This document shows, in pieces, positions 3,677-35,404 of a DNA stretch of 37,023 nucleotides. This DNA is from Magnetococcales bacterium DCbin2 (GTDB lineage Bacteria > Pseudomonadota > Magnetococcia > Magnetococcales > UBA8363). The stretch spans positions 1 through 37,023 of the forward strand of contig PEAO01000019.1 of NCBI GenBank assembly GCA_002753615.1. The letters run 5' to 3'. How positions within the stretch are numbered: the stretch's first letter is position 1; every line of letters begins with the position of its first letter. The notes beneath the pieces are model-generated. The model searched no databases. It was not told the DNA's origin and saw only the letters and a program-made list of their open reading frames with translations. A program made the position numbers and the translations under genes.

Positions 3677-3723
3677 ATTTGATTTTTTTTGTATTTAAAA
3701 CATCGAGCAGAAAAGGCAAAACC

Positions 3724-6708: not shown

Positions 6709-6709
6709 A

Positions 6710-6739
6710 AAACCCTGATGTTGTGCGACACCAGGGTTT
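6710..6739. other. Hairpin between transposase and MuB genes
   Basis: AAACCCTG at 6710-6717 pairs with CAGGGTTT at 6732-6739 around a 14-base centre that can extend the stem further. No T tract follows, so it is not a standard terminator. It could attenuate or stabilise the transcript between A and B. Confidence 0.55.
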
Positions 6740-6769
6740 AACCAGCAGATGCACGATCAAGGAGCGATT

Positions 6770-7516: not shown

Positions 7517-8259
7517 GCCGGAGAGCGTCAATGGTCATAGAACCCGAGGAGAGGATTTGGGCCAAAGTCCGGGAGTTTGGCCTATTAAAGACGTGGCGGT
7601 TCCAGGATTTGGCGGATGACATCACGGTGCATCGCGAAATGGTGCGTAGTTATGTGTCACGTTTGATTCGCGGTGGATTTCTGACAAAGACCGGGAGGCG
7701 TTATCAGTTGATCCGCGACAACGGTGTCGAGAGTCCGCGGTTACGCAAAAGCGGTGAGCCGGTTCCTACGTCCAACCGGGAGAAAATGTGGCTGGCCATG
7801 GAGGGGATGCGAGATTTTTCGGCACTTGATCTGGCCTTTGTGACGGCGGTGCCGGTGAACGATGCCAAAAGCTATATCAGCCATCTGGCGCACGTCGGGA
7901 TTCTGGTACTGGTGTCGGCCAGTAGACCGGGAAAAGCGGCTCGTCGTCATACCCTGCGCAAATGGACCGGACCCAAGCCTATGCGGATCCTGCGGGACAG
8001 GTCAGTGTTTGATCCGAACACCGGAAAAAGATATCTCGTGCCTGGTCCCAACGTCAAACTGGTACGGCGCACTATGGTGCCATTGCCGGATTGGATATTG
8101 AAGCTGGCGGAACGGTGTGATTCGGAAGGTCAAGGACGGGTTGCGGCACAGATTGGTTACAGCAAAAGCGTTATCAGCCAGGTTTTGTCTGGGAAATATA
8201 CGGGTCGGATTGATTGGGTGGAGCGGGCGGTAGTGAAGCATCTTATATCCATAGAATAG
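7513..8259 (+). CDS. Winged-helix and HTH DNA-binding protein
   Basis: This 248-residue protein is conserved next to MuB in transposable phages. The N-terminal part looks like a winged helix (WRFQDLADDITVHREMVRSYVSRLIRGGFL), with a second similar repeat (DFSALDLAFVTAVPVNDAKSYISHLAHVGIL). The C-terminal 50 residues form a lambda/XRE-like HTH (AERCDSEGQGRVAAQIGYSKSVISQVLSGKY). It probably binds DNA during early regulation or replication. The target is unknown. Its ATG overlaps the MuB stop (ATGA), showing translational coupling. Confidence 0.75.
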   Translation: MSRRASMVIEPEERIWAKVREFGLLKTWRFQDLADDITVHREMVRSYVSRLIRGGFLTKTGRRYQLIRDNGVESPRLRKSGEPVPTSNREKMWLAMEGMRDFSALDLAFVTAVPVNDAKSYISHLAHVGILVLVSASRPGKAARRHTLRKWTGPKPMRILRDRSVFDPNTGKRYLVPGPNVKLVRRTMVPLPDWILKLAERCDSEGQGRVAAQIGYSKSVISQVLSGKYTGRIDWVERAVVKHLISIE

Positions 8260-8269
8260 GGGACTGTAA

Positions 8270-8797
8270 GTGAAACTGGCACTGACAAACAGAAGAATCA
8301 AACCAAAACCAACCATCGTGATCCAAAATCTGGATGATGCGGATCGGGTGTTGGCGGAGATCGGCGACTTGCAACGCCGACTCGAAGATATTGAGACGAG
8401 TATGAACGATGCCATTGATCGGCATAAGGATGAGGCGGCGAATTTGGCGGCACCGCTCCGGGATCGATATAAGGTTTTGTCCGAGGGGTTGGCAGTCTTT
8501 GGCGAGCTTCAAAGGGACAATGTTTTTGCAGCAAAACGGACGATCAATCTGGTTTTTGGTGTCCTTGGATTTCGCAAGTCCGCCGAGATCAAAGCCGCTG
8601 CGGGCAAGAAATTGGCGGATGTCCTGGAAGCCCTTAAAACGCACAAGTTCCCTGAGGCGATCAAGGTGACGGAGAAGGTCAACAAGGATGCTATGCGGGA
8701 CTGGACGGATGACAAGTTGGCCCTGGTCCATGCCGTTCGGGAGGAGAAGGATACGTTTTGGTTCGAGGTCAAGGAAGAGGGGGTGAGTCATGGATAA
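8270..8797 (+). CDS. gam: Gam-like host-nuclease inhibitor
   Basis: The 175-residue protein matches Mu Gam, a Ku-like dimer that coats double-strand DNA ends and protects phage DNA from RecBCD-type nucleases. Visible features are the long N-terminal coiled coil (DADRVLAEIGDLQRRLEDIETSMNDAIDRHKDEA), the core NLVFGVLGFRKSAEIK and a C-terminal EEKDTFWFEV. The start is GTG 8270 with GGGGA upstream. Length is equal to Mu Gam (about 174). It sits between the transposition genes and a set of small accessory genes, as in Mu. Confidence 0.93.
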   Translation: MKLALTNRRIKPKPTIVIQNLDDADRVLAEIGDLQRRLEDIETSMNDAIDRHKDEAANLAAPLRDRYKVLSEGLAVFGELQRDNVFAAKRTINLVFGVLGFRKSAEIKAAAGKKLADVLEALKTHKFPEAIKVTEKVNKDAMRDWTDDKLALVHAVREEKDTFWFEVKEEGVSHG

Positions 8798-8987
8798 TGG
8801 CGAGTCGAAAGTTCCTTCGCTGGCGGGGGGTCCTGTCCCGCTGGCGGTATTTCCAGTGATGCTGTTGGCAACGATATTGGGTTTTTTTTGGGGCTGCATC
8901 CGATTAGCGTTCAATGATGGAGGTCTGACGGCAGATCGGATGGTGGCGCGTGCGAGTTTGAAAGGGCGCAGTGATGCAGGTAGATGA
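8790..8987 (+). CDS. Small membrane protein
   Basis: A 65-residue protein with one hydrophobic segment at about residues 14-40 (GPVPLAVFPVMLLATILGFFWGCIRLAF) and a basic C-terminus. It overlaps the end of gam by 8 bases and has a purine-rich GAAGAGGGGG site upstream, so it is likely translated. Function is unknown. It lies among early accessory genes. Confidence 0.6.
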   Translation: MDNGESKVPSLAGGPVPLAVFPVMLLATILGFFWGCIRLAFNDGGLTADRMVARASLKGRSDAGR

Positions 8988-9282
8988 AATGGTTGATGAC
9001 GACCCGGAAAGGATGTTGTGGGTGAATGTCCTGTGGGTGGCGATCAAGGATGTAGCGCGAGATGACGTGAGTATGGTGCGAGATTGCAATCGGCGAGAAG
9101 TCTCTCGGAATCGGGAAAATGCCAAAGAGTGGTTTTTGTCTCAAGAGGACGAGGAAGGGTCATTCCGCTGGGTATGTCTGATACTTGGCCTTGATCCCGA
9201 CTGGGTACATCGATGGGTATCGGGCTTTATGAAATCGCCTCGGAAAAAGGAGATATCAAGAAGATGGAGGAATTACCAATGA
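8974..9282 (+). CDS. Conserved small early phage protein
   Basis: About 102 residues. The C-terminal half contains AKEWFLSQEDEEGSFRWVCLILGLDPDWVHRWV. This WF...SF.WVC..LGLDP pattern recurs in short proteins of Mu-like phages, but no function is known to me. The N-terminus is acidic (DEMVDDDPERM). ATG 8974 has AAAGGG 7 bases upstream and GTG 8971 is an alternative. It overlaps the preceding membrane-protein gene. Confidence 0.65.
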   Translation: MQVDEMVDDDPERMLWVNVLWVAIKDVARDDVSMVRDCNRREVSRNRENAKEWFLSQEDEEGSFRWVCLILGLDPDWVHRWVSGFMKSPRKKEISRRWRNYQ

Positions 9283-9506
9283 ATCAAGATCGTATCGGAA
9301 GTGTGGTCGAACACGCTGTCTGTCAGTTGACGGAGGGGAATGGCGATGCGGTAGCCTGTCTGTTACAGACGATACCGGTGGGCGATCTGGCCGAGGCCGT
9401 GGCCCAGGAATGCGAAGATGGGGTGAAGGTGGGTGATTATAGTCTGCTGCATGTGATGAGCGATGTGTTGTCTCGTGCGTTGAGCCTCCATGGAGATTCG
9501 TTATGA
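9279..9506 (+). CDS. Hypothetical small acidic early protein
   Basis: A 75-residue acidic helical protein (GSVVEHAVCQLTEGNGDAV and GDLAEAVAQECEDG) without a recognised family. The start ATG 9279 overlaps the previous stop (ATGA) and has GGAGG 8 bases upstream. The frame also extends upstream to 9213, but that part lies inside the neighbour and lacks a ribosome site. Confidence 0.6.
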   Translation: MNQDRIGSVVEHAVCQLTEGNGDAVACLLQTIPVGDLAEAVAQECEDGVKVGDYSLLHVMSDVLSRALSLHGDSL

Positions 9507-9754
9507 GCAAAACCTTATCGCTGGAAGAATTCAAGAAGAGACTTAGAGACGCGAGTTGGTTTTATATGATGGCTGACAGCCTTCGATTAGAGATGGAGGA
9601 GAAAGCACAATTGGATGCGTTGCGGGAAATAGCCAATGAACGTGGTGGCGCATGGAAAGTGGCGTTTAACGACGAGTTTCGTCGCAATTATGAAAAGATG
9701 GGTAATCTCAGTCTCCCGTTCCCTGATGCGGGAATGTCGCAATCATGCGTCTGA
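9503..9754 (+). CDS. Hypothetical small early protein
   Basis: An 83-residue helical charged protein (LEEFKKRLRDASWFYMMADSLRLEMEEKAQLDAL) of unknown function. Its ATG overlaps the stop of the previous gene by 4 bases, and the next gene starts within its last codons. This tight overlap on both sides supports it as part of the early operon. Confidence 0.6.
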   Translation: MSKTLSLEEFKKRLRDASWFYMMADSLRLEMEEKAQLDALREIANERGGAWKVAFNDEFRRNYEKMGNLSLPFPDAGMSQSCV

Positions 9755-10332
9755 TCTGTCCCTGCTGTCAGGCGGTTGCCAGCCTGGAGGCATGGAGTGG
9801 CAATGTGGCTGCCAGGGGTGCCCTGGCAGCTATTGCCCAATTGCCGGGTGAGGTTGTGCGCCATGTCCCCCATTACCTGGCTTTATTCCGCCCCGCATCC
9901 GACCAAGGACTCTCCTGGGAGAATGCGCACAAGGTGGTGACGGAGCTGGGTGCGCTGATCGCCAAAGGGACGGTGGCACATACCCATAGGGTGGCGCGGC
10001 CCTGTTCACCTGCGATATGGGCGGAGGCACTGGCGACCATGCTGGCGCAGACATCGAAAGTCAAACGACCCCTCAAGGGGCACGGCTACCTGATCACCAT
10101 CGCTTATGAGTTGGCGGACAAGGCGGATGCCCAGCGGGAACACGGTGTGGAAATAAGTCGGGTCAACCGGGTGGTCGCGGATACCGGGGTGCCGAAAGAA
10201 TTTGATTGGAGTCAGGCGGTCACCCCCGAAGAAGCGGCGGAAATCAAATCCAAAAGCGAGTTATTCGGACGTGCCTACAAAAACAGAATTAGCCAGGATT
10301 CACATTGCCCGGAAGGCGATGGGGTTGGATGA
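9745..10332 (+). CDS. Conserved Mu-like phage early protein with CPCC motif
   Basis: A 195-residue protein. It opens with MRLICPCC, half of a zinc-ribbon-like knuckle, followed by VPHYLALFRPASDQGLSWENAHKVVTELGALIAKG and a C-terminal PLKGHGYLITIAYELADKA. The same arrangement is seen in transposable phages of Pseudomonas and other hosts, just before GemA. I know of no proven function, though the position among replication genes suggests a DNA-related role. It overlaps its neighbours on both sides. An unusual perfect hairpin lies inside its 5' part (9808-9830). Confidence 0.75.
   Translation: MRLICPCCQAVASLEAWSGNVAARGALAAIAQLPGEVVRHVPHYLALFRPASDQGLSWENAHKVVTELGALIAKGTVAHTHRVARPCSPAIWAEALATMLAQTSKVKRPLKGHGYLITIAYELADKADAQREHGVEISRVNRVVADTGVPKEFDWSQAVTPEEAAEIKSKSELFGRAYKNRISQDSHCPEGDGVG
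9808..9830. repeat. Perfect 10-bp-arm palindrome inside a coding gene
   Basis: GCTGCCAGGG at 9808-9817 and CCCTGGCAGC at 9821-9830 pair perfectly around a 3-base loop, 60 bases into the CPCC-motif gene. No T tract follows. It could slow translation or transcription at the start of this gene. Confidence 0.7.
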
Positions 10333-10720
10333 CGATGACTATCGCTGCATGTTGCGGGATCGCTACGGGGTCCAGTCGGCCAAGGATCTGAACCCGGAGG
10401 ATGTCCGGGATCTTTTGGCGCACTGTGCCAAGGTGGGGGCATTGTCCAGCGGCAAGGGTTGGCAGGGGCGACCCCAACCCAGCGAAGATCGTAAACCGAT
10501 GATCAACAAAATCATTAAACTGTCTGATCTCCTGGGGCGGCTAGGAGAAGGAAAGACCTTTTTGCGTTATGCGGACGGTATTGCCAAGGCAATGTTTTTC
10601 CGAGGCGAAGAGAACGTGGAAATCTTTGTGGAACATCTGACCTCGAGCCAACTGCACAAGGTGGTGACGGCGTTGATCGTGCAGTGCAAGCGGGAAAAGG
10701 TGCAAGGATTCATCGAATGA
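10271..10720 (+). CDS. gemA: GemA-like regulatory protein (Mu gp16 family)
   Basis: About 149 residues from GTG 10271. The core ARIHIARKAMGLDDDDYRCMLRDRYGVQSAKDLNPEDVRDLL is the DUF1018/GemA signature, and the C-terminal part (LRYADGIAKAMFF...LHKVVTALIVQCKR) is also typical. In Mu, GemA alters host gene expression and DNA supercoiling. The frame opens at TTG 10202, but the 23 extra codons are basic, lie inside the preceding gene and do not look like family sequence. The gene overlaps both neighbours and directly precedes the Mor-like activator, exactly as gp16 precedes mor in Mu. Confidence 0.88.
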   Translation: MPTKTELARIHIARKAMGLDDDDYRCMLRDRYGVQSAKDLNPEDVRDLLAHCAKVGALSSGKGWQGRPQPSEDRKPMINKIIKLSDLLGRLGEGKTFLRYADGIAKAMFFRGEENVEIFVEHLTSSQLHKVVTALIVQCKREKVQGFIE

Positions 10721-11163
10721 CGGCCCCGCGCATCCCATTGACCGTCGAAGATATGGAACGGTGTTGGTTACCGGAAACGGCCATCCGTTTGGTCGAGGTG
10801 ATCGGCACGACGGCGGCACTGGCACTGATTCAGGAGTTCGGTGGGATCGAGATTGATATTCCCAGGAAGGTCGGGCCGGAACATCGTCTGGCCAGCCTTG
10901 TCGGCTTGGAAGCGGCACGGGAATTGGTTGCTCACTGGGGGGGTGATCGGTTGTATGTCCCCAAGGCGGATCATGCTGTCCGCTGCGTCCGTAACCAGGA
11001 GATGATTCGCGGTTATGATGCGGGCCAGAGCGAAAAAGAAATTGCGCTGGAATATCGCATTACCAGCCGCCATGTACGGCGTATCTTAAACAGTCCATCC
11101 CCTTCCCCTGGGCAAGGTCGGCCCAAACCCGATTTGCGGCAGCTATCGCTCTTCGAGGAATAA
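10717..11163 (+). CDS. mor: Mor/C-family middle-late transcription activator
   Basis: A 148-residue activator. The first domain contains LIQEFGGIEIDIPRK and the family hallmark HWGGDRLYVPKAD. The C-terminal HTH is RNQEMIRGYDAGQSEKEIALEYRITSRHVRRIL, and a tail of about 20 residues ends LSLFEE. Mor-family dimers bind upstream of weak promoters and recruit RNA polymerase. It overlaps the gemA stop (ATGA) and AAGGA lies 8 bases upstream. It stands immediately before the lysis genes, with no separate C gene, so it probably does the work of both Mor and C. The dyad motif at 11161-11176 directly after it is its likely binding site. Confidence 0.88.
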   Translation: MTAPRIPLTVEDMERCWLPETAIRLVEVIGTTAALALIQEFGGIEIDIPRKVGPEHRLASLVGLEAARELVAHWGGDRLYVPKADHAVRCVRNQEMIRGYDAGQSEKEIALEYRITSRHVRRILNSPSPSPGQGRPKPDLRQLSLFEE

Positions 11164-11176
11164 CGGACATACGTCC
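11161..11176 (+). promoter_or_regulatory. Dyad motif TAACGGACATACGTCC, candidate late-activator site before lysis genes
   Basis: The 16-bp sequence starts at the stop codon of the Mor-like gene and is identical to 19108-19123 before protease I. Its centre CGGAC-ATAC-GTCCG is a dyad. These two spots correspond to Plys and PI of Mu. No clear -10 box is visible downstream, so the exact promoter is not placed. The activator link is inference. Confidence 0.55.
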
Positions 11177-11191
11177 GACTGCCCACCCCTT

Positions 11192-11202
11192 CCCCCCCCC
11201 CC
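11192..11202 (+). repeat. C11 homopolymer tract before endolysin start
   Basis: Eleven consecutive C residues end one base before the first ATG of the muramidase gene. It is the longest homopolymer in the window. Tracts like this change length by slippage and here could alter promoter spacing or leader structure. Confidence 0.85.
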
Positions 11203-11203
11203 G

Positions 11204-11731
11204 ATGATGGCGGGCATGAAAAACACACCCCAACAAACATTCAAGAATTGTCTCGCCCATGTGCTTTTGCATGAGGGTGGCTACGTCAATGACCCCAAAG
11301 ATCCTGGTGGTGAAACCAACTTTGGGATCTCCAAACGCCAATATCCCACGGTGGATATCGCCCATTTGACCCGAGATGCGGCGGCGGACATCTATGAGCA
11401 GGACTACTGGCGGAAGATCCAGGGAGACAGTCTGCCACCGGCGATTGCCCTGGCGGTGTTCGATACCGCCGTCAATTGCGGGGTCTCCAAGGCGTCCCGG
11501 ATGCTCCAGGAGAGTTGTGGGGCGGCAGCGGATGGGGTGATTGGTCTGGGGACACTCCAGGCTATCGAGAATAAAAACCCGGTAGACGTGGTGCAGGCGT
11601 TCATGGCCCGTCGTGCGGCACATTACGCCAACATCGTCATTAAAAACCCAACCTCGGCCAAGTTTTTGTTCGGCTGGTATCGACGCTGCTTTGCGGTTCA
11701 TGGGGCGGCCATGAAACTTTTGGAGGGATAA
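11204..11731 (+). CDS. GH108-family muramidase endolysin
   Basis: This protein of up to 175 residues carries the GH108 (ZliS-like) N-acetylmuramidase motif HEGGYVNDPKDPGGETNFGISKRQYP, whose Glu (E24 from the first ATG) is the expected catalytic acid. The C-terminal peptidoglycan-binding part is visible as AADGVIGLGTLQAI. It cuts the glycan backbone of peptidoglycan at lysis. No signal peptide or membrane anchor is present, so it needs a holin for export. The start is uncertain among ATG 11204, 11207 and 11216 because the upstream region is poly-C and no Shine-Dalgarno is visible. It opens the late lysis operon. Confidence 0.92.
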   Translation: MMAGMKNTPQQTFKNCLAHVLLHEGGYVNDPKDPGGETNFGISKRQYPTVDIAHLTRDAAADIYEQDYWRKIQGDSLPPAIALAVFDTAVNCGVSKASRMLQESCGAAADGVIGLGTLQAIENKNPVDVVQAFMARRAAHYANIVIKNPTSAKFLFGWYRRCFAVHGAAMKLLEG

Positions 11732-11733
11732 TC

Positions 11734-11949
11734 ATGGAGGAGAAACATTGGTATCAAAGCCGTACCATCTGGGGAGCGGTGATTCTGATTCTCTCCCGGT
11801 TTGCGCCGTCCTTGGGGTTGGAGGTCGATCCTGGGAGTTTGACGGAACTTGCCAATTCCGCAGCGGATCTGACGGGAGTTGCTATGGTGCTGTATGGCCG
11901 GGTTAAAGCGGAACGGCCAATCCGACTCAGTGCCCCAAAAGAGATTTGA
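11734..11949 (+). CDS. Small membrane protein, candidate holin
   Basis: A 71-residue protein with WYQSRTIWGAVILILSRFAP near its N-terminus and a second weakly hydrophobic segment (LTGVAMVLYGRV). Short proteins with this WY-S-TIWG opening commonly stand next to phage endolysins. Its position directly after the muramidase, with GGAGGG before the ATG, supports a holin or lysis accessory role. Two membrane segments would suit a class II or III holin, but this is inference. Confidence 0.65.
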   Translation: MEEKHWYQSRTIWGAVILILSRFAPSLGLEVDPGSLTELANSAADLTGVAMVLYGRVKAERPIRLSAPKEI

Positions 11950-11951
11950 CC

Positions 11952-12314
11952 GTGAGTGCCGAACTCTTTCTAAAATGGTGGCCGATCTTTGGGGCGGTGA
12001 TTCAAGGGGTTTTCCTGTGGCTTGCATGGTCCATGCGCAAGATGTTCGTCACCAAGGACGAGCTTAAAATATTCCAGGAAGAGTTGGTCGAACGGTTGTG
12101 TGACCATGACCACAAGATCGATACCATCGAAGCCAAGATGCAGACGATCCCAGGGGGGCGAGAATTCCAAGAATTATCCTGCAAGGTCAACACGGCGGCT
12201 GGTGACATCAAAGCCGTTGGCGTCTCCTTGGAAGGGATCAAAGAACTGCTGGCACGGTCGGATCGTCAACTCAACATGTTGTTTCGGGCGCACATGCCCG
12301 AAGGGGACAAGTGA
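11952..12314 (+). CDS. DUF2730-type membrane-anchored protein (Mu gp25-like)
   Basis: About 120 residues. An N-terminal membrane helix (FLKWWPIFGAVIQGVFLWLAWSM) is followed by a long charged coiled-coil-like region (KDELKIFQEELVERLCDHDHKIDTIEAKM). This matches the DUF2730 family found between lysis and packaging genes in Mu-like phages. The layout, a membrane anchor plus a periplasmic coil, resembles an inner-membrane spanin subunit, though no outer partner is visible. GTG 11952 is preferred over TTG 11946. Confidence 0.75.
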   Translation: MSAELFLKWWPIFGAVIQGVFLWLAWSMRKMFVTKDELKIFQEELVERLCDHDHKIDTIEAKMQTIPGGREFQELSCKVNTAAGDIKAVGVSLEGIKELLARSDRQLNMLFRAHMPEGDK

Positions 12315-23962: not shown

Positions 23963-24297
23963 TCACCGCAGCCCGCCATTGGGCGCGTGCTGCGGTGCAA
24001 AGTCATGGTGATCAGGATACCGCCCAAGAGGATCTGGCGGCGTGGAATGCCCCTGATGCGGTGGTTGCCGCCATGGCGCGGTCCGAAGAAGAAGACGCCT
24101 GTATCGTCTGGCCCGAGAATGAAAGTGTGTTGCGGTTGTTTTTGCGACTCCAGACTGCATGGCGCGACACCGGCCTGGATTATCCATCGGTCCGAGTGGT
24201 TATGGAATCGCTAGGACGCTGGCCCGATGATGCATGTTTCGCCGATATCCAGGCGATGGAGTATGCAGTGCTTGATGAATGGCGGAGTGAACCATAG
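23621..24297 (+). CDS. Tail assembly chaperone G-T fusion made by -1 frameshift
   Basis: The T part reads in the -1 frame from the slippery site at 23953-23959 to TAG 24295-24297: LITAARHWARAAVQSHGDQDTAQEDLAAW, WPENESVLRLFLRLQTAW and YAVLDEWRSEP. This about 225-residue fusion corresponds to lambda gpGT, which recruits tail tube subunits to the tape measure. The T frame has a stop at 23917-23919 and no convincing start of its own, which supports expression only as a fusion. Confidence 0.8.
23953..23997 (+). promoter_or_regulatory. Programmed -1 ribosomal frameshift signal
   Basis: The heptamer G-GGA-AAC lies in correct register (X-XXY-YYZ) immediately before the zero-frame TGA. Lambda uses GGGAAAG at the same gene. 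Four bases downstream a perfect 9-bp stem (CACCGCAGC 23964-23972 / GCTGCGGTG 23989-23997) can form, with a smaller CGCC/GGCG stem in its loop. Confidence 0.88.
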
Positions 24298-24722
24298 TGT
24301 CTGACAACCATACCGTCGGTATCGTGATCAGGGCAGACGGATCGTCCTTGGTCGCCGAGGTCGAGAAATCCAAGAAATCCTTGGTTGATCTGACCGAAAG
24401 CACCCAGAAGGTGGGGGCGGAAACCGGGAAAGCGACATCCGAGATCGGTCGCTTGGATGACTCTATGTCTCGTGCCGCAGATTCATCGAGTCGGGCGGCG
24501 CGGGAACTGGCGGCGATGTCCACCCAGTCGAGTGGTCTTTCTTCCGCCGTTGCCGGGTGGCAACAGACGTTGGGCATGGTTGCGGCCATCGGCGGGGTCA
24601 CTGCTACCCTGAAGTCAACAGTCACCGCTTATGCCTCTTTATCAGGAGGGGTTGATTGCTGTTGGCAAAACAGCCGATCTGGAGGGATCCAAGCTGGCTC
24701 AATTCGGCACCCGGATCGATAA
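24297..24722 (+). CDS. Tape measure protein, N-terminal fragment (frame interrupted)
   Basis: The first 115 residues are tape-measure-like: VGIVIRADGSSLVAEVEKSKKSLVDL, helical heptads and AAIGGVTATLKSTVTAYASL. After about 24640 the frame gives unrelated Cys- and Arg-rich sequence and stops. The natural continuation (QEGLIAVGKTADLEG) lies in the +1 frame, so one extra base in the TCTTTATCAGG stretch breaks the gene. The GTG start overlaps the T stop (TAGTG). Confidence 0.8.
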   Translation: MSDNHTVGIVIRADGSSLVAEVEKSKKSLVDLTESTQKVGAETGKATSEIGRLDDSMSRAADSSSRAARELAAMSTQSSGLSSAVAGWQQTLGMVAAIGGVTATLKSTVTAYASLSGGVDCCWQNSRSGGIQAGSIRHPDR

Positions 24723-27114
24723 CCTTTCTCACCATATGCCGGTTGCTGCGACACAACTCCTCGATATCGCACAAGCCGCTGGACAGCTTGGCGTGAAAGG
24801 GGAGGAGAACATTATGCGGTTCACCGAAACCGTGGCCCGGATGGGATCATCCACCAATCTGTCCGGGTCGGAAGCGGCAACGACGCTGGCACGACTACTC
24901 AACGTAACCCGCGAGTCTATGGGGTCGGTTGGGACATTGGGTAGCGTGCTGGTCGCGTTGGGCAATAATTTTGCGACTACAGAGGCGGAGATTGCCCACA
25001 CAGCCAATGAGGTTGCCCGTGCAACATCGGTGTTCGGTGTGTCGTCAGCCAATGCATCCGCCCTGGCCGCCGCTATGTCATCGATGGGCATCCAAGCAGA
25101 GCTGGGGGGATCCAGCGTTGGCAAAGCGATGCGTAAGATGGATGAAGCTATCCGTGAGGGGGGCGATGGCTTGAAGAGGTTGGAGGAGTTGACTGGCCTG
25201 ACCGGAGAGCAACTGAAGAAGACCTTTGCCGAAGATGCCACGAAAGCTTTCCAACTGTTTCTACAAGGTGTTGGGCGGGTAATCGATAGCGGAGGCAGTG
25301 CCACGGAGACGCTGGAGGAGTTTAACCTTAAAGGTGAAGAGATTGAGAAGACTTTGCCGGTGCTGGCGCAAAATGCCGACGAGGTTGGTCGCGCCATAGA
25401 TACGGCAGCCAGAGAGGTGAAGAATGCCACGGCACTGGTGACCGAGTCGGATAAGGCGTTTGAAAGCTTTAATTCGGAAATGCAACTGCTGCGGAACACC
25501 ATCACATCGATTGCCGTCGCTATCGGTGCGGAATTGGCCCCACGTCTGGAAATCTTAAGCCGGGGGGTGCGATGGGCACTGAACGGTGGCAGTTTTGGTC
25601 TTGAACCCGGCAAGTCTGAGGCACGCATCGATGACGATGTTATGCAAGGAATTAACAATTATAGCGAATTTAAAACCGGAATCGATGATGATGTCATGCA
25701 ATTGCTCAACCAAGCTACCGATTTTCGGCAAGGCGACCCTGTACCAACACCCGCACCAAAGAAGCGCGGCACCAATGACGAGTCTGCGGATGATTCGGTG
25801 GTTGCTGCCTCTGCCGCGACCAAAGGACGATTGCTGACGCTTGAAAAACAACTCCAACGTGAGCTGCTGGACGCCAAGTTTAGCGGCTCCGAAAAGATTA
25901 TCGAAGAACATCGGCGTATGCTTGCCGAGCTAGAAAAGATCCGGAACCCCAAAAACACGGCCCAGGTTGACGCCATGAAAGAGCAAGCCCTGGAGTTGCG
26001 GGACGCCAAACTTGCGAAGTATGCCGCCAAGGAGTCTGAGAGGGAATCCAAGGCAGCCAAGAACAGACGCGATGAAAACGCAAAGCTGATCGCCGACTTG
26101 CAGCAGGAGGCGGCAGCGATATCCATGACCGATCAACAACGGTACGTCTCTACTGCCTTGCGACGCCTATCGGCAACGGCCACCAAGGAGCAGCGTCAGG
26201 AGGTGGAGAAGCTGGCGACGGTGATGTACTCCGAGCAGGAGGCCGTCAAGCAGTTAAAGAAGGCGGCGGAAGACCACGAAAAACTGTTGGAGCGGGGTAA
26301 AGAGGTTACAAAATCGGTGGCGACGGAGGAGGAAAAGCGTGCCGCAGTGGTTGCTGAACTCAACACCCTGCTCAAAGAGGGGGCTATCGACCAGGAGACC
26401 TACACCCGCGCGATGATGGCGTCGGCAACAGACTGGTCATCCGGGATGCAGCGTGCATTGAGGGCTTACTCCGATGATGCTACGAACTCGGCCAAAAATT
26501 GGGAAATCGCCACCAGCAACGCCTTTCGCGGGATGGAAGACGCGCTGACTTCGTTTGTTGCCACCGGCAAAGCGGATTGGAAAAGCTTGGTTGATTCCAT
26601 TTTAGCCGATTTAGCCCGTATCGCTGTGCGTGAAAGCATCACTGGACCTTTGGCGAAGGCCTTGGGGATGAGTATGGGCGGTTCGTCTTCAGGTGCCGCC
26701 GGTTCCGGCTTCGGTTTTGGTGATGTGTTCGAGGGAATCGGATCTCTGTTCTCTTCGATCTTCCATGACGGTGGAATTGTGGGTGATGGTGCCATCTCCC
26801 GCCGATCTGTCCCTTCCCAGATTTTCGTCGGCGCACCCAGGTTCCATTCTGGCGGCATCATTGGACCGGATGAGGTACCCATCATCGCTCAACGTGGCGA
26901 ACGGGTGTTGTCGCGCAAGCAAAACAAGGCCTATGAAGCGGGACAAACCGGTGCGGGAGACAATGGTCGGGTCGAGGTACAAATTATCAATGTGACCAAC
27001 CCCGACATGATCAAACGATTGGTTGCGGACACCATCGTTGAGAAAAAGGATACCGTGGTCAACATGGTCCTGAACGCCATGGACGAACGCAACTTGGTTG
27101 TGAGGCGATTCTGA
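24631..27114 (+). CDS. Tape measure protein, main part
   Basis: This 827-residue frame holds most of the tape measure: a TP901-type core (LLDIAQAAGQLGVKGEENIMRFTETVARMGSSTNLSGSEAA), long charged coiled coils around residues 390-560, and the C-terminal FHSGGIIGPDEVPIIAQRGERVLS motif usual in lambda-like tape measures. It sets tail length and helps DNA pass the membrane. No ribosome site precedes 24631, so it depends on the upstream fragment. Joined, the protein would be about 938 residues. Confidence 0.85.
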   Translation: MPLYQEGLIAVGKTADLEGSKLAQFGTRIDNLSHHMPVAATQLLDIAQAAGQLGVKGEENIMRFTETVARMGSSTNLSGSEAATTLARLLNVTRESMGSVGTLGSVLVALGNNFATTEAEIAHTANEVARATSVFGVSSANASALAAAMSSMGIQAELGGSSVGKAMRKMDEAIREGGDGLKRLEELTGLTGEQLKKTFAEDATKAFQLFLQGVGRVIDSGGSATETLEEFNLKGEEIEKTLPVLAQNADEVGRAIDTAAREVKNATALVTESDKAFESFNSEMQLLRNTITSIAVAIGAELAPRLEILSRGVRWALNGGSFGLEPGKSEARIDDDVMQGINNYSEFKTGIDDDVMQLLNQATDFRQGDPVPTPAPKKRGTNDESADDSVVAASAATKGRLLTLEKQLQRELLDAKFSGSEKIIEEHRRMLAELEKIRNPKNTAQVDAMKEQALELRDAKLAKYAAKESERESKAAKNRRDENAKLIADLQQEAAAISMTDQQRYVSTALRRLSATATKEQRQEVEKLATVMYSEQEAVKQLKKAAEDHEKLLERGKEVTKSVATEEEKRAAVVAELNTLLKEGAIDQETYTRAMMASATDWSSGMQRALRAYSDDATNSAKNWEIATSNAFRGMEDALTSFVATGKADWKSLVDSILADLARIAVRESITGPLAKALGMSMGGSSSGAAGSGFGFGDVFEGIGSLFSSIFHDGGIVGDGAISRRSVPSQIFVGAPRFHSGGIIGPDEVPIIAQRGERVLSRKQNKAYEAGQTGAGDNGRVEVQIINVTNPDMIKRLVADTIVEKKDTVVNMVLNAMDERNLVVRRF

Positions 27115-27482
27115 TGGCTTGGTACTCCTCCGACCTGCCGACATTTCCGGCCATCCCCTTTGAGTCGGCCCAAGAACGACGTTCCGACCCGACCAAGGTT
27201 GTGGAATTCAGCGGGGAGACCGAGCAGCGCGTCTCTTACGCCGGGCCACGGCGGCGTGCGTGGGAAGTACGCACACCTCTGGTTCGTTCCGTGACGGTCG
27301 ATTTGTTTACCGCATTTTGGGAAGAGCGGCAGGGGCAGAGATTTCCGTTCAAGTTTACTTGGCGTCAGGTCGTCTATTTCACCCGTTTTGATGGATCATT
27401 CACCATCTCCTGGAGTGCCCCCAACCTGGGATTGATCGAGTTTTCCGTCAAAGAGATGCACCCATCGGAGATCATCACGTAA
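27114..27482 (+). CDS. Minor tail protein after the tape measure
   Basis: A 122-residue beta-rich protein (VVEFSGETEQRVSYAGPRRRAWEVRTPLVRSVTVDLFTAFWEERQGQRFPFKFTW). Size and place, directly after the tape measure, fit a distal-tail or lambda M-type minor tail protein at the tube tip. Family assignment is uncertain. It overlaps the tape-measure stop (TGATG) with GAGG 8 bases upstream. Confidence 0.6.
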   Translation: MAWYSSDLPTFPAIPFESAQERRSDPTKVVEFSGETEQRVSYAGPRRRAWEVRTPLVRSVTVDLFTAFWEERQGQRFPFKFTWRQVVYFTRFDGSFTISWSAPNLGLIEFSVKEMHPSEIIT

Positions 27483-28210
27483 TGGACAAGATCTGGTACA
27501 AGGATTTCACCCCCTTCGAGGCGTCGGCGGGAATTGCCACCGACAAAAGCGGCAACGGCTTTGATGCCACCCTGGCGGGAGCTTGTGAGTTCAGTAACTT
27601 TGCCGCCAGGGGGAAGGTCTTGCGGTTCCCTGTCACGACGACCAGTTATGCCCACAGCGACAGCAACCAACGGATGAACATTGCTAACGGGTTAACGGTC
27701 GGTGCCTGGATCTGGCGGGATGACAACTCCCAGGCCATGGTGATCGACCGTAATCTTTCCTTTCGGCTTTGGTTCCCAGACTCATCAGGCAAACCCCGGT
27801 TTGATATTCATGTCGGTGGCAATTGGTATGGGATTTGGTCTGAAATTGCCATCCCGACGCAACAATGGGTCTTTATCCAAGCCGCCTACGGACCCACTAT
27901 CACACACATCTACGTCCACGGCACCCTGCGCGGAGCCGGAAGCCCAGCCGGTGGGGCGTTCACCGACAGCCAGGAGCCTGTCTGGATCGGTCGTTATCAA
28001 TATGGGGGATACCAGTTTTCCGGTCACATCGGTGAGATCATCGTCAAAGATGCCTTCGTGGATCTTGATACCCACCGGGCTGACCTGAAGCGGTGGATTA
28101 AGAGGACCGAGGGATCGGTGGTGGAGTTATTGGAACTCCATGCCCCCGGTGAAACATTGCGGTTTTGTTCGCTGGCGACCCCCATCACTCTGACCGTCTA
28201 CGATATGTGA
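27482..28210 (+). CDS. LamG-like (concanavalin-fold) tail protein
   Basis: A 242-residue protein. GIATDKSGNGFDATLAGACEF, NIANGLTVGAWIWRDD, IPTQQWVFIQAAYGPTITHIYVHGTLRGAG and WIGRYQYGGYQFSGHIGEIIVKDAF form the succession of strands of a LamG jelly roll. Such folds bind sugars, here probably on the host surface. It starts one base within the preceding stop (TAATG), inside the tail-tip gene order, which suggests it is a structural part of the tip. Confidence 0.78.
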   Translation: MDKIWYKDFTPFEASAGIATDKSGNGFDATLAGACEFSNFAARGKVLRFPVTTTSYAHSDSNQRMNIANGLTVGAWIWRDDNSQAMVIDRNLSFRLWFPDSSGKPRFDIHVGGNWYGIWSEIAIPTQQWVFIQAAYGPTITHIYVHGTLRGAGSPAGGAFTDSQEPVWIGRYQYGGYQFSGHIGEIIVKDAFVDLDTHRADLKRWIKRTEGSVVELLELHAPGETLRFCSLATPITLTVYDM

Positions 28211-28215
28211 TTGCG

Positions 28216-31047
28216 ATGAGTGATGAAATTGCTTGGCCAGTCACCGATCTCCAAATCACGGAGCTTACCCACCCAGGTGGTGGAGTAACCCAGGTCACCG
28301 TGGCTTGGAATATACCGGCAGCACCGGAACACATAAACAGCGTCGTCTGGTACAAATCGCTTGAGGGGGTCTGGGAATGGCCCATTGAAAACCTAGGCGG
28401 GAATCGATACGGGCCACTCACGTTCTTGTGGCCGCATCAGGAAGGGTTGCTGGAAATAAAAGTGGTCTCAATGTTTTTGTATGGGACCAACTATGTCAAC
28501 AACACCGACACGGCCCCGACGATTTCGTTGTATGTCGGTAGCACGGATGAATATTTAATCAGTGGTCTGACGCGGCTCAAAACGTTCAATGCTCGGCTTC
28601 TAGGCAGCACGGTCAAGCGTGGCACGCGCATCGATGATTGGATCCAGTATGGTCTCTATTATGGCGACCCAGCCTATCTGGAGGTCCATGATTTTTCCTC
28701 CTGGGATTTAATCGTGCTTGACCGCGCCTTCCTGTGGAGTATGGACCGGGCGGGCATCGCCGCCGACGTGTTGATTTATCTGCCATGGGGGTCCGACTTT
28801 CGGAAAGCAGCGACGATATCCGGGGATACGGCACCGGCGTATGACGCCGCAGGGATCGAAAATTTTATTAATGAATACAAGAGCAAAATCGACGATATTT
28901 TTGCCCAGGGGTGCAATGGGGTATTTTACGACGAATGCGATGTTGGGTATTGGGATCCCAATTATGCCGCCGAATCCGCACAAATCATGCGCGATATCGG
29001 GCTGGCACCGTTGTGTGATTATGTCCGCGCCCATGGGGGCAGGTCCATCGTCAACGGCGCGACATGGTTTGCCAAGGTTGGCGAGATATTCCTGGTAGAG
29101 TCATTCGTGGGTCATTGGACGGGGAACCCCTTTCGACCCAGTTGGGGGTGGCTCCCCTTTTTCTGGCGTTACGGCCAAAGTCTTGGAGAAACCGGCGAGT
29201 TGGGTGGCGTCGATTGGACCACCGGAATACGCGCCTACCTTTACAACTGGAAGTATGCCAACGCTGGCCCCAATGCCACCGTCATGTATGGGCACACTTA
29301 CGGGGATCCGCTCTCCCCCTGGCAAAATAATCGGCAATTGACTTGCTACGCCGCCTTCCGGGCATCCGGCATTGCATCGTTCAATTACATCAGCCCGGAC
29401 AACCAAATACTGCGGGAGATCCTGGCACACCGCTATTACCTTGGGGCACCCCTGGAACCTCCCCGGTTTGACCTTGTGAACGAAACGATTTCCAGGCGGT
29501 TTTCGGGCGGAAGGGTGTTTTATGACAGCAAAAACCCAGAGGCCAGTTATCTCAATCTGGATGTCTCACCGGGGTATTGGTTTGACATTGGCCGTGATTT
29601 TGATGATGTCCCCTGGGATTCAGTCCAAGTCCAGTCCGGTGCCGGTCTTCAACAAACCGGAAACATCCCGACTTATTTGAGAGTTGTCTCCGCAAAATCC
29701 TGGGATGACCGATCATTCGTCTATCTTCGGGTAGAAATGGAAACGGCCCTGGAACAAGCAGATGCCATCCCGGTTTTTGTATACGTGGAATTGGATGGGG
29801 CGCAGGCGGGATGGCAGAGTGCGCTCCAAGAGGACAAAGTCTCTGTCTACCTGAATTTTTCCACGATCAAGATTCAGCTTTACCTCTATTGGAAATCATT
29901 GTTTGTGTACCAGGGGGCCGGTGGGTCGGAATACAATTTCCGGTATCTGTACGGGGTTGACTGCGAAAAAAGGGGGTCCGTGATGTATTGGCGGATCCGC
30001 AAGGAGACCCTGCGCTACTGTATGCCCACCTGGAACGGGCAGTCCATCAACTGGATCCCGTGTTACGAAGGGTGGTCGGGGGCCGGGTTTTTCATCAACG
30101 GAAATATTGTGGCGCAGAATGAATCCCCACTGCTCAGTGTGAATGGTCATCTCGTCAGCCCCATGGTGACCCCTCTGGCCTACGTCCCGCACACGGCGGT
30201 GATGTACAAGGGGACCGCGAGCAACAACAGAAGGATCATCCAGGTATCCATCACCGGGACTTGGGATAAAGCGTGGGTGTTCGACCGCAAGACTGGAACA
30301 TTCATCGGTCCAGACGGAACCCCCGACTCCTGGTTTACGACATCCCCCTTCAATCCCCCCCGGAATCTGGATGCGCGGGATGTCTATGTCCTGGTGGCGG
30401 GGAACAATGGCACCAGTGCTACCGACGAAAGTTTCTCAGTGAGCGGCGTGACCGTCATCCTGGCAACTTATGCCATCAACGATACCCCAGGATATGACGT
30501 ACCTCCACCCGACCTTATTGAATGGCAATCCGTCTATGATGGATGGGAGTATGAGAAATTGCCCGCATCGAATATCCGCACATTTGTCCCGATGGGGATC
30601 AACCGAGGGACCGTTAAGTTCAAAAAAGACACCCTTACCGACCGATTCGTAATCACGGTTCAGGGGACGGATGCCATCGCGAATCTATTAGATTCCACCG
30701 ACATTCGTGGTGCCAAGGTGGTGCTGCGCCGAACTTTCGAGGACGCCAACCATACGGATCCAGATCAGACCGAGACTATGGTGGTGGCCTACGTGGAATC
30801 CTGGGAGTTGGCGGAAGTGGGATTGACCATCCAGGCCAGAACCAATCTACAAAACTGGCAATCCAGCTTTCCCAGGCGTCGTCTGAGTTATTTTTGCCCG
30901 TACATCTTCAAAGACCCGCGATGCACCTACGGTGGCGTGGTATCGACGTGCGACAAGACGTTACCTACCTGCCAAGCACTTGGCAATGCTGCGCATTATG
31001 GAGGCTTTCCGACCATTCCACGTATGCAGCGGGGGAAATGGGGATGA
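28216..31047 (+). CDS. Tail hub protein with glycoside-hydrolase-like barrel and gp84-type C-terminus
   Basis: A 943-residue mosaic. Residues 1-110 form an FN3-like beta domain (HPGGGVTQVTVAWNIP to TAPTISLYVGS). Residues of about 120-430 resemble a TIM-barrel glycoside hydrolase of the GH114/spherulin-4 type, with the likely catalytic stretch GVFYDECDVGYW (D239, E240, D242). After a beta-rich middle, the last 150 residues match the phiJL001 gp84/BR0599 hub domain with four cysteines (CPYIFKDPRC, TCDKTLPTC) and a final GGFPTIPR. It may digest capsule or cell-surface polysaccharide. ATG 28216 is chosen, but its ribosome site is weak. Confidence 0.75.
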   Translation: MSDEIAWPVTDLQITELTHPGGGVTQVTVAWNIPAAPEHINSVVWYKSLEGVWEWPIENLGGNRYGPLTFLWPHQEGLLEIKVVSMFLYGTNYVNNTDTAPTISLYVGSTDEYLISGLTRLKTFNARLLGSTVKRGTRIDDWIQYGLYYGDPAYLEVHDFSSWDLIVLDRAFLWSMDRAGIAADVLIYLPWGSDFRKAATISGDTAPAYDAAGIENFINEYKSKIDDIFAQGCNGVFYDECDVGYWDPNYAAESAQIMRDIGLAPLCDYVRAHGGRSIVNGATWFAKVGEIFLVESFVGHWTGNPFRPSWGWLPFFWRYGQSLGETGELGGVDWTTGIRAYLYNWKYANAGPNATVMYGHTYGDPLSPWQNNRQLTCYAAFRASGIASFNYISPDNQILREILAHRYYLGAPLEPPRFDLVNETISRRFSGGRVFYDSKNPEASYLNLDVSPGYWFDIGRDFDDVPWDSVQVQSGAGLQQTGNIPTYLRVVSAKSWDDRSFVYLRVEMETALEQADAIPVFVYVELDGAQAGWQSALQEDKVSVYLNFSTIKIQLYLYWKSLFVYQGAGGSEYNFRYLYGVDCEKRGSVMYWRIRKETLRYCMPTWNGQSINWIPCYEGWSGAGFFINGNIVAQNESPLLSVNGHLVSPMVTPLAYVPHTAVMYKGTASNNRRIIQVSITGTWDKAWVFDRKTGTFIGPDGTPDSWFTTSPFNPPRNLDARDVYVLVAGNNGTSATDESFSVSGVTVILATYAINDTPGYDVPPPDLIEWQSVYDGWEYEKLPASNIRTFVPMGINRGTVKFKKDTLTDRFVITVQGTDAIANLLDSTDIRGAKVVLRRTFEDANHTDPDQTETMVVAYVESWELAEVGLTIQARTNLQNWQSSFPRRRLSYFCPYIFKDPRCTYGGVVSTCDKTLPTCQALGNAAHYGGFPTIPRMQRGKWG

Positions 31048-31370
31048 CCGGCGATTGCTTTCAAATTTTGGCCACATGGCATCCCACGTTTGTCGATGCG
31101 TTTCGCGGATTACAGCATGTCCCTGTGAGCGATGTCGTTGCCAGACTGCGCATGCAGTTTTCCGTCACGGATTTTTTCTTGGCCGGAGTACGGGACAGAG
31201 ATGTCGTCCTTTGGCTTGATCCCAACGGCAAGGTCCATCTGTCGATCTACTCTCAGAGCCGGTTTACCATTATTGGCAAAGATGGTGCCGAAAAGACCAT
31301 CCACCTCCGCGCCAGATGGCAACGGACTGCGTTGCGCCCTGCTTATATCGTGAGGAATAAAACGCCATGA
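31044..31370 (+). CDS. Hypothetical tail-tip-associated protein
   Basis: A 108-residue protein (ATWHPTFVDAFRGLQHVPVSDVVARLRMQFSVTDFFLAGVRD...HLRARWQRTALRPAYIV) with no recognised family. In related tails a peptidase-type gene stands here, but no NlpC/P60 Cys-His motif is visible. It overlaps both neighbours by 4 bases (ATGA), and a purine-rich site precedes the ATG. Confidence 0.6.
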   Translation: MTGDCFQILATWHPTFVDAFRGLQHVPVSDVVARLRMQFSVTDFFLAGVRDRDVVLWLDPNGKVHLSIYSQSRFTIIGKDGAEKTIHLRARWQRTALRPAYIVRNKTP

Positions 31371-33541
31371 TGGCAGTGATCCCTGCCCTCGTGGGGGCAT
31401 CCACCTACATGGCTACAGGGTCAGTCTGGATGGCCCTAGGCAAGATCGGGCTGATGGCCTTGGGGCAGTTTTTGACGCCCAACGGACAACAAGGGGCAGT
31501 CTCGTCCGCCACGGGGAACACTGTCCCTCCCGTAGATCCCGGCCTTGGGTTTGCCCCCATGCCCCAATATCCCTCCCCAGAACTGCCTGTCCCCATTGTT
31601 TTCGGTAAAAGTCGGCTCAACGGTCTGGTGATCCATACCCGGATCTATGGAGGAGATTATCAGAAAGGCCATTACTTGGTCGTCTTCGGTGAAGTTGGCC
31701 TCACTCTGGATCAACTTTACATCGACAAATACAAAATCGAAGATCTGCCCAATTATTTCACCAAATCTGGAGGCGTCCAGAATGCTGAGTCATCCTGGTA
31801 CACCTTCCATCCCTTGGGAGGGCAAGCGCAAATATCCCTAGATAACAGCGGCACCTGGGAGATTGGGATTTATCGCAACACCATTGGCACCATCGCCGCC
31901 CCTGTCCCCGCGATGTTCTACGGCGGTGGGACGTTGACCTGTTGGTCGTATCATTCGTTCACTAATGAAGGGTCCATGCAATGGTATCGCTGGAAAGTCA
32001 CCAACATCAGTAACCCTAACCAAGTTTATTATTCCCCGACCTATTGGGAGTGGTTCTTCGAGGAGGTCGAGGTGAGCGGCAATTATGCCAAAGTTCCAGG
32101 CTCCAAGCTGCGGTCACATCAATTTAACATTTCCGCCCCACTCTCACGGTGGGCCGTAGAACTTGAAGTCACGGTACTCCTCAAGGGTGCCGAGGGCGAA
32201 GGGACCAAAGAAGGGTCTCAGATCGGAATCTACAAGTTTGATCTCACCGACATGCCCTTCACCGAAGGGATCCCGGTCAACGCGACCTATGCCCATATCC
32301 ACTTGGTCAAAGACGCCTCTCTAGCATCCAACAACCCGGTCATCTCGGCATTGGTCCATTCGACGGGGACTTCGGGGATGGGGGGCAACCCTGCCGATGC
32401 CATGTTGATCTTCCTGACCGACCCCGTAGTCGGGCTGGGGCTGCCGGGAGATTCCATCGATTATGCCTCCCAACTGACGACCTCTTACTGGTGCGAGCAG
32501 AAGGGGTATGGCTTCAACCGCGCCATCGCCGCCTTTTATGATGCCGAGCAAGTATTCCGTGAGATTTGCACCGCCGGACGTATCATGAGCCTCTCCAGGG
32601 ATGGAAGGATCTATCTCAAACCCGATGACGTGGAACCGGCTTCCTACAAGGTGGGGGAGACGGAGACTATCCCCGGATCCATCCGCGTCGGGATCCAGGC
32701 CACCAGTCGCCCAAACAGGATCGAGGCGCAGTACGTTGAGCCTTATTACGGCTACGTCGTGGAACGGATTTATGCGGAAGATCTTGATGCCATCGCCAGG
32801 GATGGTCTCCAGGTACAAACCATCGATCTGACTGGGGTAACGGACCAGGCGCAAGCCTATGCCCTGGCGGTCTTCATGCTGCGCACTATCCAAGAATGTC
32901 CCTACTGGTGCCGTTTCAAAGTCGGGATGGAAACGGCCAGGCTACTCCCTCTTGGCGGCGTCATCGAGATTGAAAGCACGACCAACACGCTTGTCGGCTC
33001 CAAACAATGGCGCGTGGTGGCCATCGAGGAGACGGAAGCGTTCATCTACCAGATCGAATGCATCCAGTATTCTGCTGCTGTCTATGCCGAACCAACCTTT
33101 ACGCCATGGTACAACGACACGGTGGACTTGGAGCCGGTCCAGGGATGGCCCGACCCCTACGGAGGTGCGTTGATGGTGGTCAACTTTCGGGTCACGGGGA
33201 TCTCGTATCCCGATGGTGGCGGGTCATTGGTCACCGTGGATTGGAATACTCCGCCAATATCACCGAGATATGACTACTGCAAAATTCAGTGGCTTCATCC
33301 CGGCGGTGAATGGGTGGACCAGGGGACATCCGTGAATGGACCCTTCCAGTTCGTCTGGCCATACCGCTATGGGATGATGTCTCTTAGGGCAGTCTCATGC
33401 GTTAATTTGGGGGGATCCCTCCCATTGCTGACCAATGTTGACACAGCACCGATCATTGAAATGTATGTCTCCGGCAACGAGACCAACGATTTCCCAGGAT
33501 ATGGTAGCGGAATGTATGGACAACAATATTATGGATTTTGA
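31367..33541 (+). CDS. Tail tip / host-specificity protein (lambda J-like position)
   Basis: A 724-residue protein. The opening is hydrophobic and Gly-rich (ASTYMATGSVWMALGKIGLMALGQFL), followed by PVPIVFGKSRLNGLVIHTRIYGGDYQKGHYLVVFGEVGLTLDQLYIDK, typical of tip assembly proteins. FNRAIAAFYDAEQVFREICTAGRIMSLSRDGRIYLKPDD belongs to the hub core. The last 110 residues are an FN3-like domain related to the one at the start of the hub protein. It probably forms the central tip contacting the host. Confidence 0.78.
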   Translation: MMAVIPALVGASTYMATGSVWMALGKIGLMALGQFLTPNGQQGAVSSATGNTVPPVDPGLGFAPMPQYPSPELPVPIVFGKSRLNGLVIHTRIYGGDYQKGHYLVVFGEVGLTLDQLYIDKYKIEDLPNYFTKSGGVQNAESSWYTFHPLGGQAQISLDNSGTWEIGIYRNTIGTIAAPVPAMFYGGGTLTCWSYHSFTNEGSMQWYRWKVTNISNPNQVYYSPTYWEWFFEEVEVSGNYAKVPGSKLRSHQFNISAPLSRWAVELEVTVLLKGAEGEGTKEGSQIGIYKFDLTDMPFTEGIPVNATYAHIHLVKDASLASNNPVISALVHSTGTSGMGGNPADAMLIFLTDPVVGLGLPGDSIDYASQLTTSYWCEQKGYGFNRAIAAFYDAEQVFREICTAGRIMSLSRDGRIYLKPDDVEPASYKVGETETIPGSIRVGIQATSRPNRIEAQYVEPYYGYVVERIYAEDLDAIARDGLQVQTIDLTGVTDQAQAYALAVFMLRTIQECPYWCRFKVGMETARLLPLGGVIEIESTTNTLVGSKQWRVVAIEETEAFIYQIECIQYSAAVYAEPTFTPWYNDTVDLEPVQGWPDPYGGALMVVNFRVTGISYPDGGGSLVTVDWNTPPISPRYDYCKIQWLHPGGEWVDQGTSVNGPFQFVWPYRYGMMSLRAVSCVNLGGSLPLLTNVDTAPIIEMYVSGNETNDFPGYGSGMYGQQYYGF

Positions 33542-34533: not shown

Positions 34534-34797
34534 ATGACGACTCCCATGGATAGACCCGTGTTACGCAACTCACTTGGGTCAGAAGATTGGTTTACCCCCC
34601 GTTACGCTTACGATGCCAATGGCGATACCGAGTATATGGGTAAAGCCGAAGCCGGTACCCAAGACGGCGAACCGAAATGGCTTATCAAAAAGCTCGTATA
34701 CGATGGTTCGCGTCAACATATTGCGACAATATTTGCCAACGGGAAGGCCGCTTTCGACCAAATTTGGAATAATCGCGAGAGCCTACCTTATTTATAA
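34534..34797 (+). CDS. Small tail-fibre-region protein
   Basis: An 87-residue protein (LRNSLGSEDWFTPRYAYDANGDTEYMGKAEAG, LVYDGSRQHIATIFANGKAAFDQIW). Its content of short beta strands and loops fits a small fibre-associated protein. AAGGA lies 8 bases before the ATG. No specific family is recognised. Confidence 0.6.
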   Translation: MTTPMDRPVLRNSLGSEDWFTPRYAYDANGDTEYMGKAEAGTQDGEPKWLIKKLVYDGSRQHIATIFANGKAAFDQIWNNRESLPYL

Positions 34798-34807
34798 GGA
34801 TGAGTTT

Positions 34808-35404
34808 ATGCGCACCAAAGTTAACCCGGAAACGGGGCGGTTGGACCTTGTTGGTGACACGCTTGACCTTGGACCTGCATTGCAAGGGGTATGGTCCGGG
34901 AGTGTGACCTATGCCAAAGGTGAGGTTGTCAGCTATGGGGGACCGCTGTATGTCTCGCTCGCGGATGCCAATACTGACCATCAACCGGACGCGAATCCCA
35001 CATGGTGGGGCGAGGTGACCCAGCGGGGGGCCACCGGACAACCCGGGGTTAACCCTGGCGTTACGACCATGGTAGCTGGTGAGGCACTGGCCAGCTTAAG
35101 GGTGGTATCTGTGAATGCAACCGGGCACGCCGTTTACGCGGATGCTCAGGTCGATGCGTTGGCCACGTCGGTAATCGGGGTAACACTGGTGTCAGTCGGC
35201 ATTGGCGAGTCCGTGTCGATCCAAACGTTTGGGGTGGTAACCGATCCTGGATGGACTTTTACTCCAGGCAGCCCAATCTTCTTGGGTATCAATAGCTTGT
35301 TGTCAGCGTCCCCCCCACTGACAGGGTGGATGGTAAAGATGGGTATCGCATTATCATCAACGGATGTCGCAATACAGCGGCAACTAATCGTCAAACTTGC
35401 GTAA
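34808..35404 (+). CDS. Tail fibre protein with carbohydrate-binding-like module
   Basis: A 198-residue protein. GVWSGSVTYAKGEVVSYGGPLYVSL followed by NPTWWGEV is the W..Y..GE.V.Y.G..Y pattern of CBM5/12-type chitin/carbohydrate modules common in fibre proteins. A short collagen-like linker (GATGQPG) follows, and then a beta domain with SVNATGHAVYADAQVDALATSVIGVTL. AAGGA lies 7 bases before ATG 34808. Confidence 0.72.
   Translation: MRTKVNPETGRLDLVGDTLDLGPALQGVWSGSVTYAKGEVVSYGGPLYVSLADANTDHQPDANPTWWGEVTQRGATGQPGVNPGVTTMVAGEALASLRVVSVNATGHAVYADAQVDALATSVIGVTLVSVGIGESVSIQTFGVVTDPGWTFTPGSPIFLGINSLLSASPPLTGWMVKMGIALSSTDVAIQRQLIVKLA

Follow-up and report, generated by a model that had tools for sequence, protein, structure and literature searches.

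An enlarged gpL-type collar protein with a putative GH114-like barrel, apparently divided over two genes, in a Mu-like prophage of the Magnetococcales

A Mu-like siphophage prophage in a Magnetococcales MAG encodes a 943-aa tail protein that appears to be the larger part of a two-gene collar protein of the gpL/RcGTA-hub family. The full explanation, which we favor by a modest degree, combines a gpL split between two genes, an inserted barrel of the GH114 group of glycoside hydrolases (GH), and cleavage of host exopolysaccharide. The separate elements are all of known kinds (i.e., gpL, LamG, FN3-like domains, GH114-like barrels, and GH-like baseplate domains). Neither a GH114-like barrel in a gpL protein nor a gpL encoded over two genes was found in the sequences and literature searched (few subscription papers among the latter).

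The window (i.e., the whole stretch of DNA that was analyzed; 37,023 bases) is the complete contig C21 of a 3.36-Mb assembly (78% complete), the relatives of which are Magnetococcales MAGs. It carries a Mu-like transposable siphophage prophage, in which homologs of MuA and MuB (phrog_310 and phrog_296) occur with Mu-type head genes (portal, gpF-like protein, and protease). The head and packaging genes also include the small and large terminase subunits and the major head protein; the tail genes include those for the tail tube, tape measure, Dit, and a J-like protein, and genes for a late activator and an endolysin are present. A ParB-like partition/nuclease protein (positions 3679 to 4593) is encoded upstream of the MuA gene. 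In a probable tail-fiber protein (34574 to 35404), one stretch weakly resembles CBM5/12 (1.2e-3, short of the cutoff) and is another possible sugar-binding part. The tape measure is spread over two overlapping frames (24297 to 24722 and 24631 to 27114) in the window and is a single 940-aa ORF in the related prophage L008; the broken frame reflects either decay or a sequencing error.

Table 1. Positions in the window of the features discussed in the text
Feature	Position	Strand	Evidence
MuA	4774-6708		profile search
MuB	6749-7516		profile search
gpM/distal-tail (Dit, DUF2460, Rcc01695-like) protein, 122 aa	27114..27482	+	PF09343 2.2e-5, below its cutoff; TIGR02217 4.7e-4, below its cutoff; one-base overlap with next gene, as lambda M-L
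LamG-domain protein, 242 aa, where gpL should begin	27482..28210	+	PF13385 1.2e-15, residues 53-186
C-terminal tail of LamG protein (VVELLELHAPGETLRFCS), like first strands of gpL attachment domain	28106..28171	+	glocal score 16.1
FN3-barrel-beta-gpL(C) protein, 943 aa	28216..31047	+	ATG 28216, stop ending 31047
FN3-like domain, paralog of J C-terminal domain	28240..28548	+	30% identity, E 1e-13 to J residues 604-705
GH114/GH135-like putative barrel, residues 128-415	28597..29460	+	hhalign P 2.4e-4 to GH114; dN/dS 0.052
GVFYDECDVGYW, beta-4 motif, residues 235-246, with nucleophile candidate D239	28918..28953	+	aligned with GH114 GLFIDTMD
E295 (FLVES), beta-6 acid/base candidate	29098..29100	+	aligned with GH114 ILAES
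Beta-rich region, residues 441-765, no assigned family	29536..30510	+	no Pfam match
gpL/hub C-terminal part, residues 766-943; Fe-S-type Cys 894, 903, 912, 919	30511..31044	+	phrog_778, BR0599, Cys spacing
Small tail gene, K/I position, 110 aa	31038..31370	+	ortholog in L008
J-like central tail-tip protein (axis), C-terminal FN3-like domain	31367..33541	+	phrog_31 8.5e-28; PF13550

The first-pass annotation had read the 943-aa ORF as a tail hub protein in which a glycoside hydrolase-like barrel lies between an FN3-like N terminus and a gp84/BR0599-type C terminus, with a LamG-like protein next to it. The ORF was confirmed with its start and stop, and it is not a chance frame because residues 128 to 415 have a dN/dS of 0.05 against the nearest ortholog. 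The FN3-like N terminus also held (residues 9 to 111), as did the LamG-like neighbor, which scored 58 bits against the PF13385 cutoff of 27.6. The motif GVFYDECDVGYW, named as lying near the center of the barrel, starts at residue 235, within the flagged stretch of residues 110 to 440. For the middle region (residues 441 to 765), CBM9 was tried as a family and rejected, its profile score being no better than those of shuffles.

Only two other MAGs, both of the same genus, yielded orthologs (locus L008 in genome G001 and locus L009 in genome G007); no relatives were found in 50,697 phage records, plasmids, or IMG/VR. Inspected matches with E values of >0.5 (H74 to H76) were due to chance, a weak match within the phylum (L013) sits in the frame of a TonB-type receptor, and matches of the barrel profile to T4 lysozyme were at chance level (E of 0.05 or worse). 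Among viral contigs, none with GH114 relatives was confirmed. The L008 ortholog is full length (88% identity over the barrel), and the L009 ortholog (67% identity) lacks the FN3-like domain and the gpL part. The L009 copy looks decayed, because other tail genes there are truncated too. Over positions 5437 to 12189, the tail tube is incomplete, the tape measure is largely missing, and neither the gpL part nor the start of J is present; the barrel and LamG are retained. The J-like ORF of L009 (9733 to 12189) contains a HINT/intein-like domain (residues 213 to 339; PF07591, 2.2e-9) that is absent from the J of the window.

Between the window and L008, dN/dS was 0.05 for the barrel, 0.04 for the C-terminal gpL part, and 0.23 for the FN3-like domain. 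The barrel-like domain is thus under strong purifying selection. These data bear on the possibility that the arrangement is a relic, i.e., a by-product of deletions and assembly in a decaying prophage. The out-of-frame tape-measure ORF of the window and the large losses from the tube, tape measure, and gpL in L009 would fit such an origin; however, L008 has the same two-gene arrangement together with an intact tape measure, and dN/dS is low across the domains. We consider a relic very improbable.

The hub assignment of the C terminus was upheld in part. The C terminus matched phrog_778 (8e-11) and, when scanned alone, Pfam BR0599 (2.9e-5, above the cutoff), and lambda gpL in the PDB gave a weak match to it. 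Its four cysteines are separated by intervals of 9 and 7 residues (CX8C and CX6C), exactly the spacing in lambda gpL (C173, C182, C205, and C212 [PMC10721106]). The C-terminal iron-binding domain with four cysteines and the gene order Dit, L, small gene(s), and J, by which gpL/GTA-hub proteins are recognized, are therefore both present; the product of the small gene gave no match in family searches. The N-terminal attachment (HDI) domain was not found in the same chain (no match to PF09931), and the ORF lacks the first half of the gpL/hub domain. Because the start of the attachment domain is absent from the chain, we regard the 943-aa protein as a variant rather than a plain member of the family.

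The protein shares its C-terminal domain, four-cysteine spacing, and the order Dit, gpL, small gene, and J with lambda gpL, JBD30 gp50, and the RcGTA hub Rcc01696, and JBD30, like this prophage, is a transposable siphophage of the Mu type. Those proteins, however, are single chains of about 230 to 300 aa, whereas the C-terminal gpL part here follows about 770 other residues, and another gene seems to encode the beginning of the attachment domain. An RcGTA-type hub in our data (L063; a 736-aa open frame on the reverse strand) is likewise a gpL/hub-family protein with a large insert, but its insert (about 225 aa; no family in a Pfam search) lies between the cysteine pairs of the ion-binding domain and not in the attachment domain.

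The phrog_778 match of the 943-aa protein begins at profile position 43 of 287, and the missing beginning may be supplied by the LamG gene. The tail of the LamG protein (SVVELLELHAPGETLRFCS) resembles lambda ASVVLWEIDLTEVGGERYFFC and its homologs. Its glocal score of 16.1 compares with a mean of -3.3 (standard deviation, 4.0; maximum, 11.9) for 1,500 shuffles, and no score above 10.0 was obtained with 22 other proteins of the window; by HMMER local search, the tail did not reach significance. The tail (residues 206 to 242; dN/dS, 0.046) evolves like gpL, unlike the LamG part (residues 1 to 205; 0.133). Furthermore, the Dit and LamG genes share a one-base overlap (27482), as do lambda M and L, and the split site corresponds to a loop of variable length in lambda-type gpL proteins (differences of up to about 25 residues). 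A programmed frameshift joining the LamG and barrel proteins is unlikely because their relative frame is not conserved (offset of 2 in the window and 1 in L008); two coupled polypeptides are more likely than a frameshift product. Taken together, these sequence comparisons lead us to think it likely, with some reserve, that gpL is divided over two polypeptides, the LamG tail providing the missing first strands of the attachment domain.

The first-pass annotation had placed depolymerase activity at the tip axis of the tail instead of on side spikes. The family name "hub" speaks for such a position, as does the attachment domain, which lines the final ring of the tail (PMC10721106). In lambda, though, three copies of the gpL-type protein form a collar below the distal-tail ring; the Fe-S domain lies at the outer surface, and J occupies the axis (PMC10721106). 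In the Mu-like siphophage JBD30, gp50 is the homolog and is present as three upper-baseplate proteins, which anchor the side fibers together with the distal tail proteins, and gp53 is the axial protein (PMC11445458); in RcGTA, the hub likewise forms a collar of three and is a separate protein from the megatron (PMC7296036). The prophage has a separate J-like gene, the product of which would be axial. Because the homologs form a collar of three and the J-like product is axial, the barrel insert should project sideways from the collar, and a depolymerase on the axis in place of side spikes is highly unlikely.

The family of the barrel was addressed by profile-profile comparison. Against a GH114 alignment of proteins from Magnetococcales and other Pseudomonadota, hhalign gave a score of 35.1 (P, 2.4e-4), which none of 600 column shuffles reached (best, 28.6). 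Spherulin-4/GH135 gave a weak match (29.5; P, 0.0023), and the profile scores of GH18, GHL10, and GTA_TIM as parent families were no better than those of shuffles. Smaller GH114 subsets scored lower, i.e., 19.6 for three deeper members, 26.8 for four magnetococcal members, and 26.2 (P, 0.0073; 147 columns aligned) for 15 mostly magnetococcal sequences. Most of the GH114 score comes from the beta-4 motif GCNGVFYDECD, because shuffles that kept 12-column blocks intact reached up to 38.7; the sequence in which the other elements occur contributes little. Pfam and NCBIfam scans of the barrel yielded no match, the GH114 family threshold was not reached, and AlphaFold2 gave a pLDDT of 36 for both of two barrel crops with the three available orthologs.

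These comparisons also weigh on the possibility that the barrel is unrelated to GH114 and has another fold, its motif having arisen by convergence. The lack of a family match, the two low pLDDT values, the concentration of the signal in one motif, and the number of sequences (three) would be expected in such a case. On the other hand, column shuffles and unrelated TIM-barrel families fall short of the GH114 score, and the matches land on both families (GH114 and spherulin-4) that the first-pass annotation had named from the sequence alone. We judge an unrelated fold to be improbable and assign the barrel, as a probable member, to the GH114 group, an assignment that profile-profile comparison with specificity controls supports at the level of a putative fold and activity. 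The barrel resembles Ega3, TM1410, Sph3, and PelA (GH114/GH191/GH135/GH166) in profile and, in one alignment, in the register of Asp, Glu, and Asn, but it differs from them in that it scores below every family threshold, has a putative fold and activity, and belongs to a virion protein.

The 15-sequence alignment pairs the barrel segments FSSWDLIVLD, GCNGVFYDECD, SIVNG, and FLVES with FEPFDLIVFD, GFHGLFIDTMD, MINRG, and ILAES of GH114, placing D239, N280, and E295 opposite the invariant GH114 Asp, Asn, and Glu, respectively. The best-scoring alignment stops after D239, and only the 15-sequence one extends to E295. In Ega3, Asp189 and Glu247 are the catalytic nucleophile and acid/base and have counterparts in GH191, GH135, and GH166, including Sph3 and PelA (PMC12054363). 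Because they align with the GH114 Asp and Glu, D239 (nucleophile-like) and E295 (acid/base-like) are the likely candidate catalytic pair, replacing the D239/E240/D242 proposed in the annotation.

A barrel that is derived from a glycoside hydrolase but serves as a noncatalytic carbohydrate-binding or structural collar domain would have a parallel in the megatron of R4C and RcGTA, whose peripheral domain (mannanase-like; GTA_TIM) places a GH-like barrel in a baseplate, likewise on a gpL-type tail. In this lineage, the GH-like domains of baseplate proteins have been discussed only as sugar binders (PMC10276861), and the single alignment of E295 is compatible with such a role. The megatron barrel, however, sits in megatron/J and not in gpL, and it has no detectable sequence similarity to the barrel described here (score below those of shuffles). 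Moreover, the invariance of D239, N280, and E295 in all three orthologs (67 to 88% identity), together with the low dN/dS of the barrel, argues against a loss of catalysis. A noncatalytic domain is accordingly a less likely outcome, to be kept in mind, and we lean slightly toward an enzymatically active barrel of the GH114 group.

Enzymes of the GH114/135/166/191 group cut galactosamine-rich polymers (e.g., Pel and galactosaminogalactan [PMC12054363]). PelF is encoded in both other prophage-bearing genomes, G001 and G007 (about 450 bits against an NCBIfam cutoff of 100), and a Pel-like galactosamine polymer is for this reason our best guess for the substrate; a search of the genome to which the window belongs (78% complete) found no PelF. 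The distance between pelF and a host gene of the GH114/TM1410 type is about 7 kb in G007 (C205:31749-40016 [L228]), and such genes also lie within roughly 7 to 15 kb of pelF in other Magnetococcales genomes (G018, G022, G025, G028, G029, and G042); this proximity suggests that Pel clusters include an enzyme of the GH114/GH191 type. We propose tentatively, and with limited confidence, that Pel is what the phage barrel acts on.

The mechanism that we propose is as follows. The tail of the LamG protein would complete the gpL attachment domain, so that two chains form one collar subunit, and the barrel would be a TIM-barrel endo-galactosaminidase of the GH114/GH135/GH166/GH191 group with D239 as the nucleophile and E295 as the acid/base. 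Next to the sugar-binding LamG domains, three such barrels would stick out laterally from the collar and would cut the host exopolysaccharide, possibly a Pel-type galactosamine polymer, thereby allowing J to reach the outer membrane. In its most specific form (a two-polypeptide gpL collar with a lectin [LamG] and an active GH114-type hydrolase, i.e., a lateral galactosaminidase ring digesting a Pel-type host matrix), the proposal is rather unlikely to hold in every part.

Most polysaccharide depolymerases of phages have been described in tailspikes and fibers. If the proposed reading is true, a hydrolase in the gpL collar would add to the ways in which siphophages gain matrix-degrading activity, and completing the gpL sandwich with a second chain would be an unusual way of assembling this conserved protein. 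D239 and E295 give specific positions at which the reading can be tested directly. Little is known about the phages of the hosts, which are uncultured magnetotactic bacteria.
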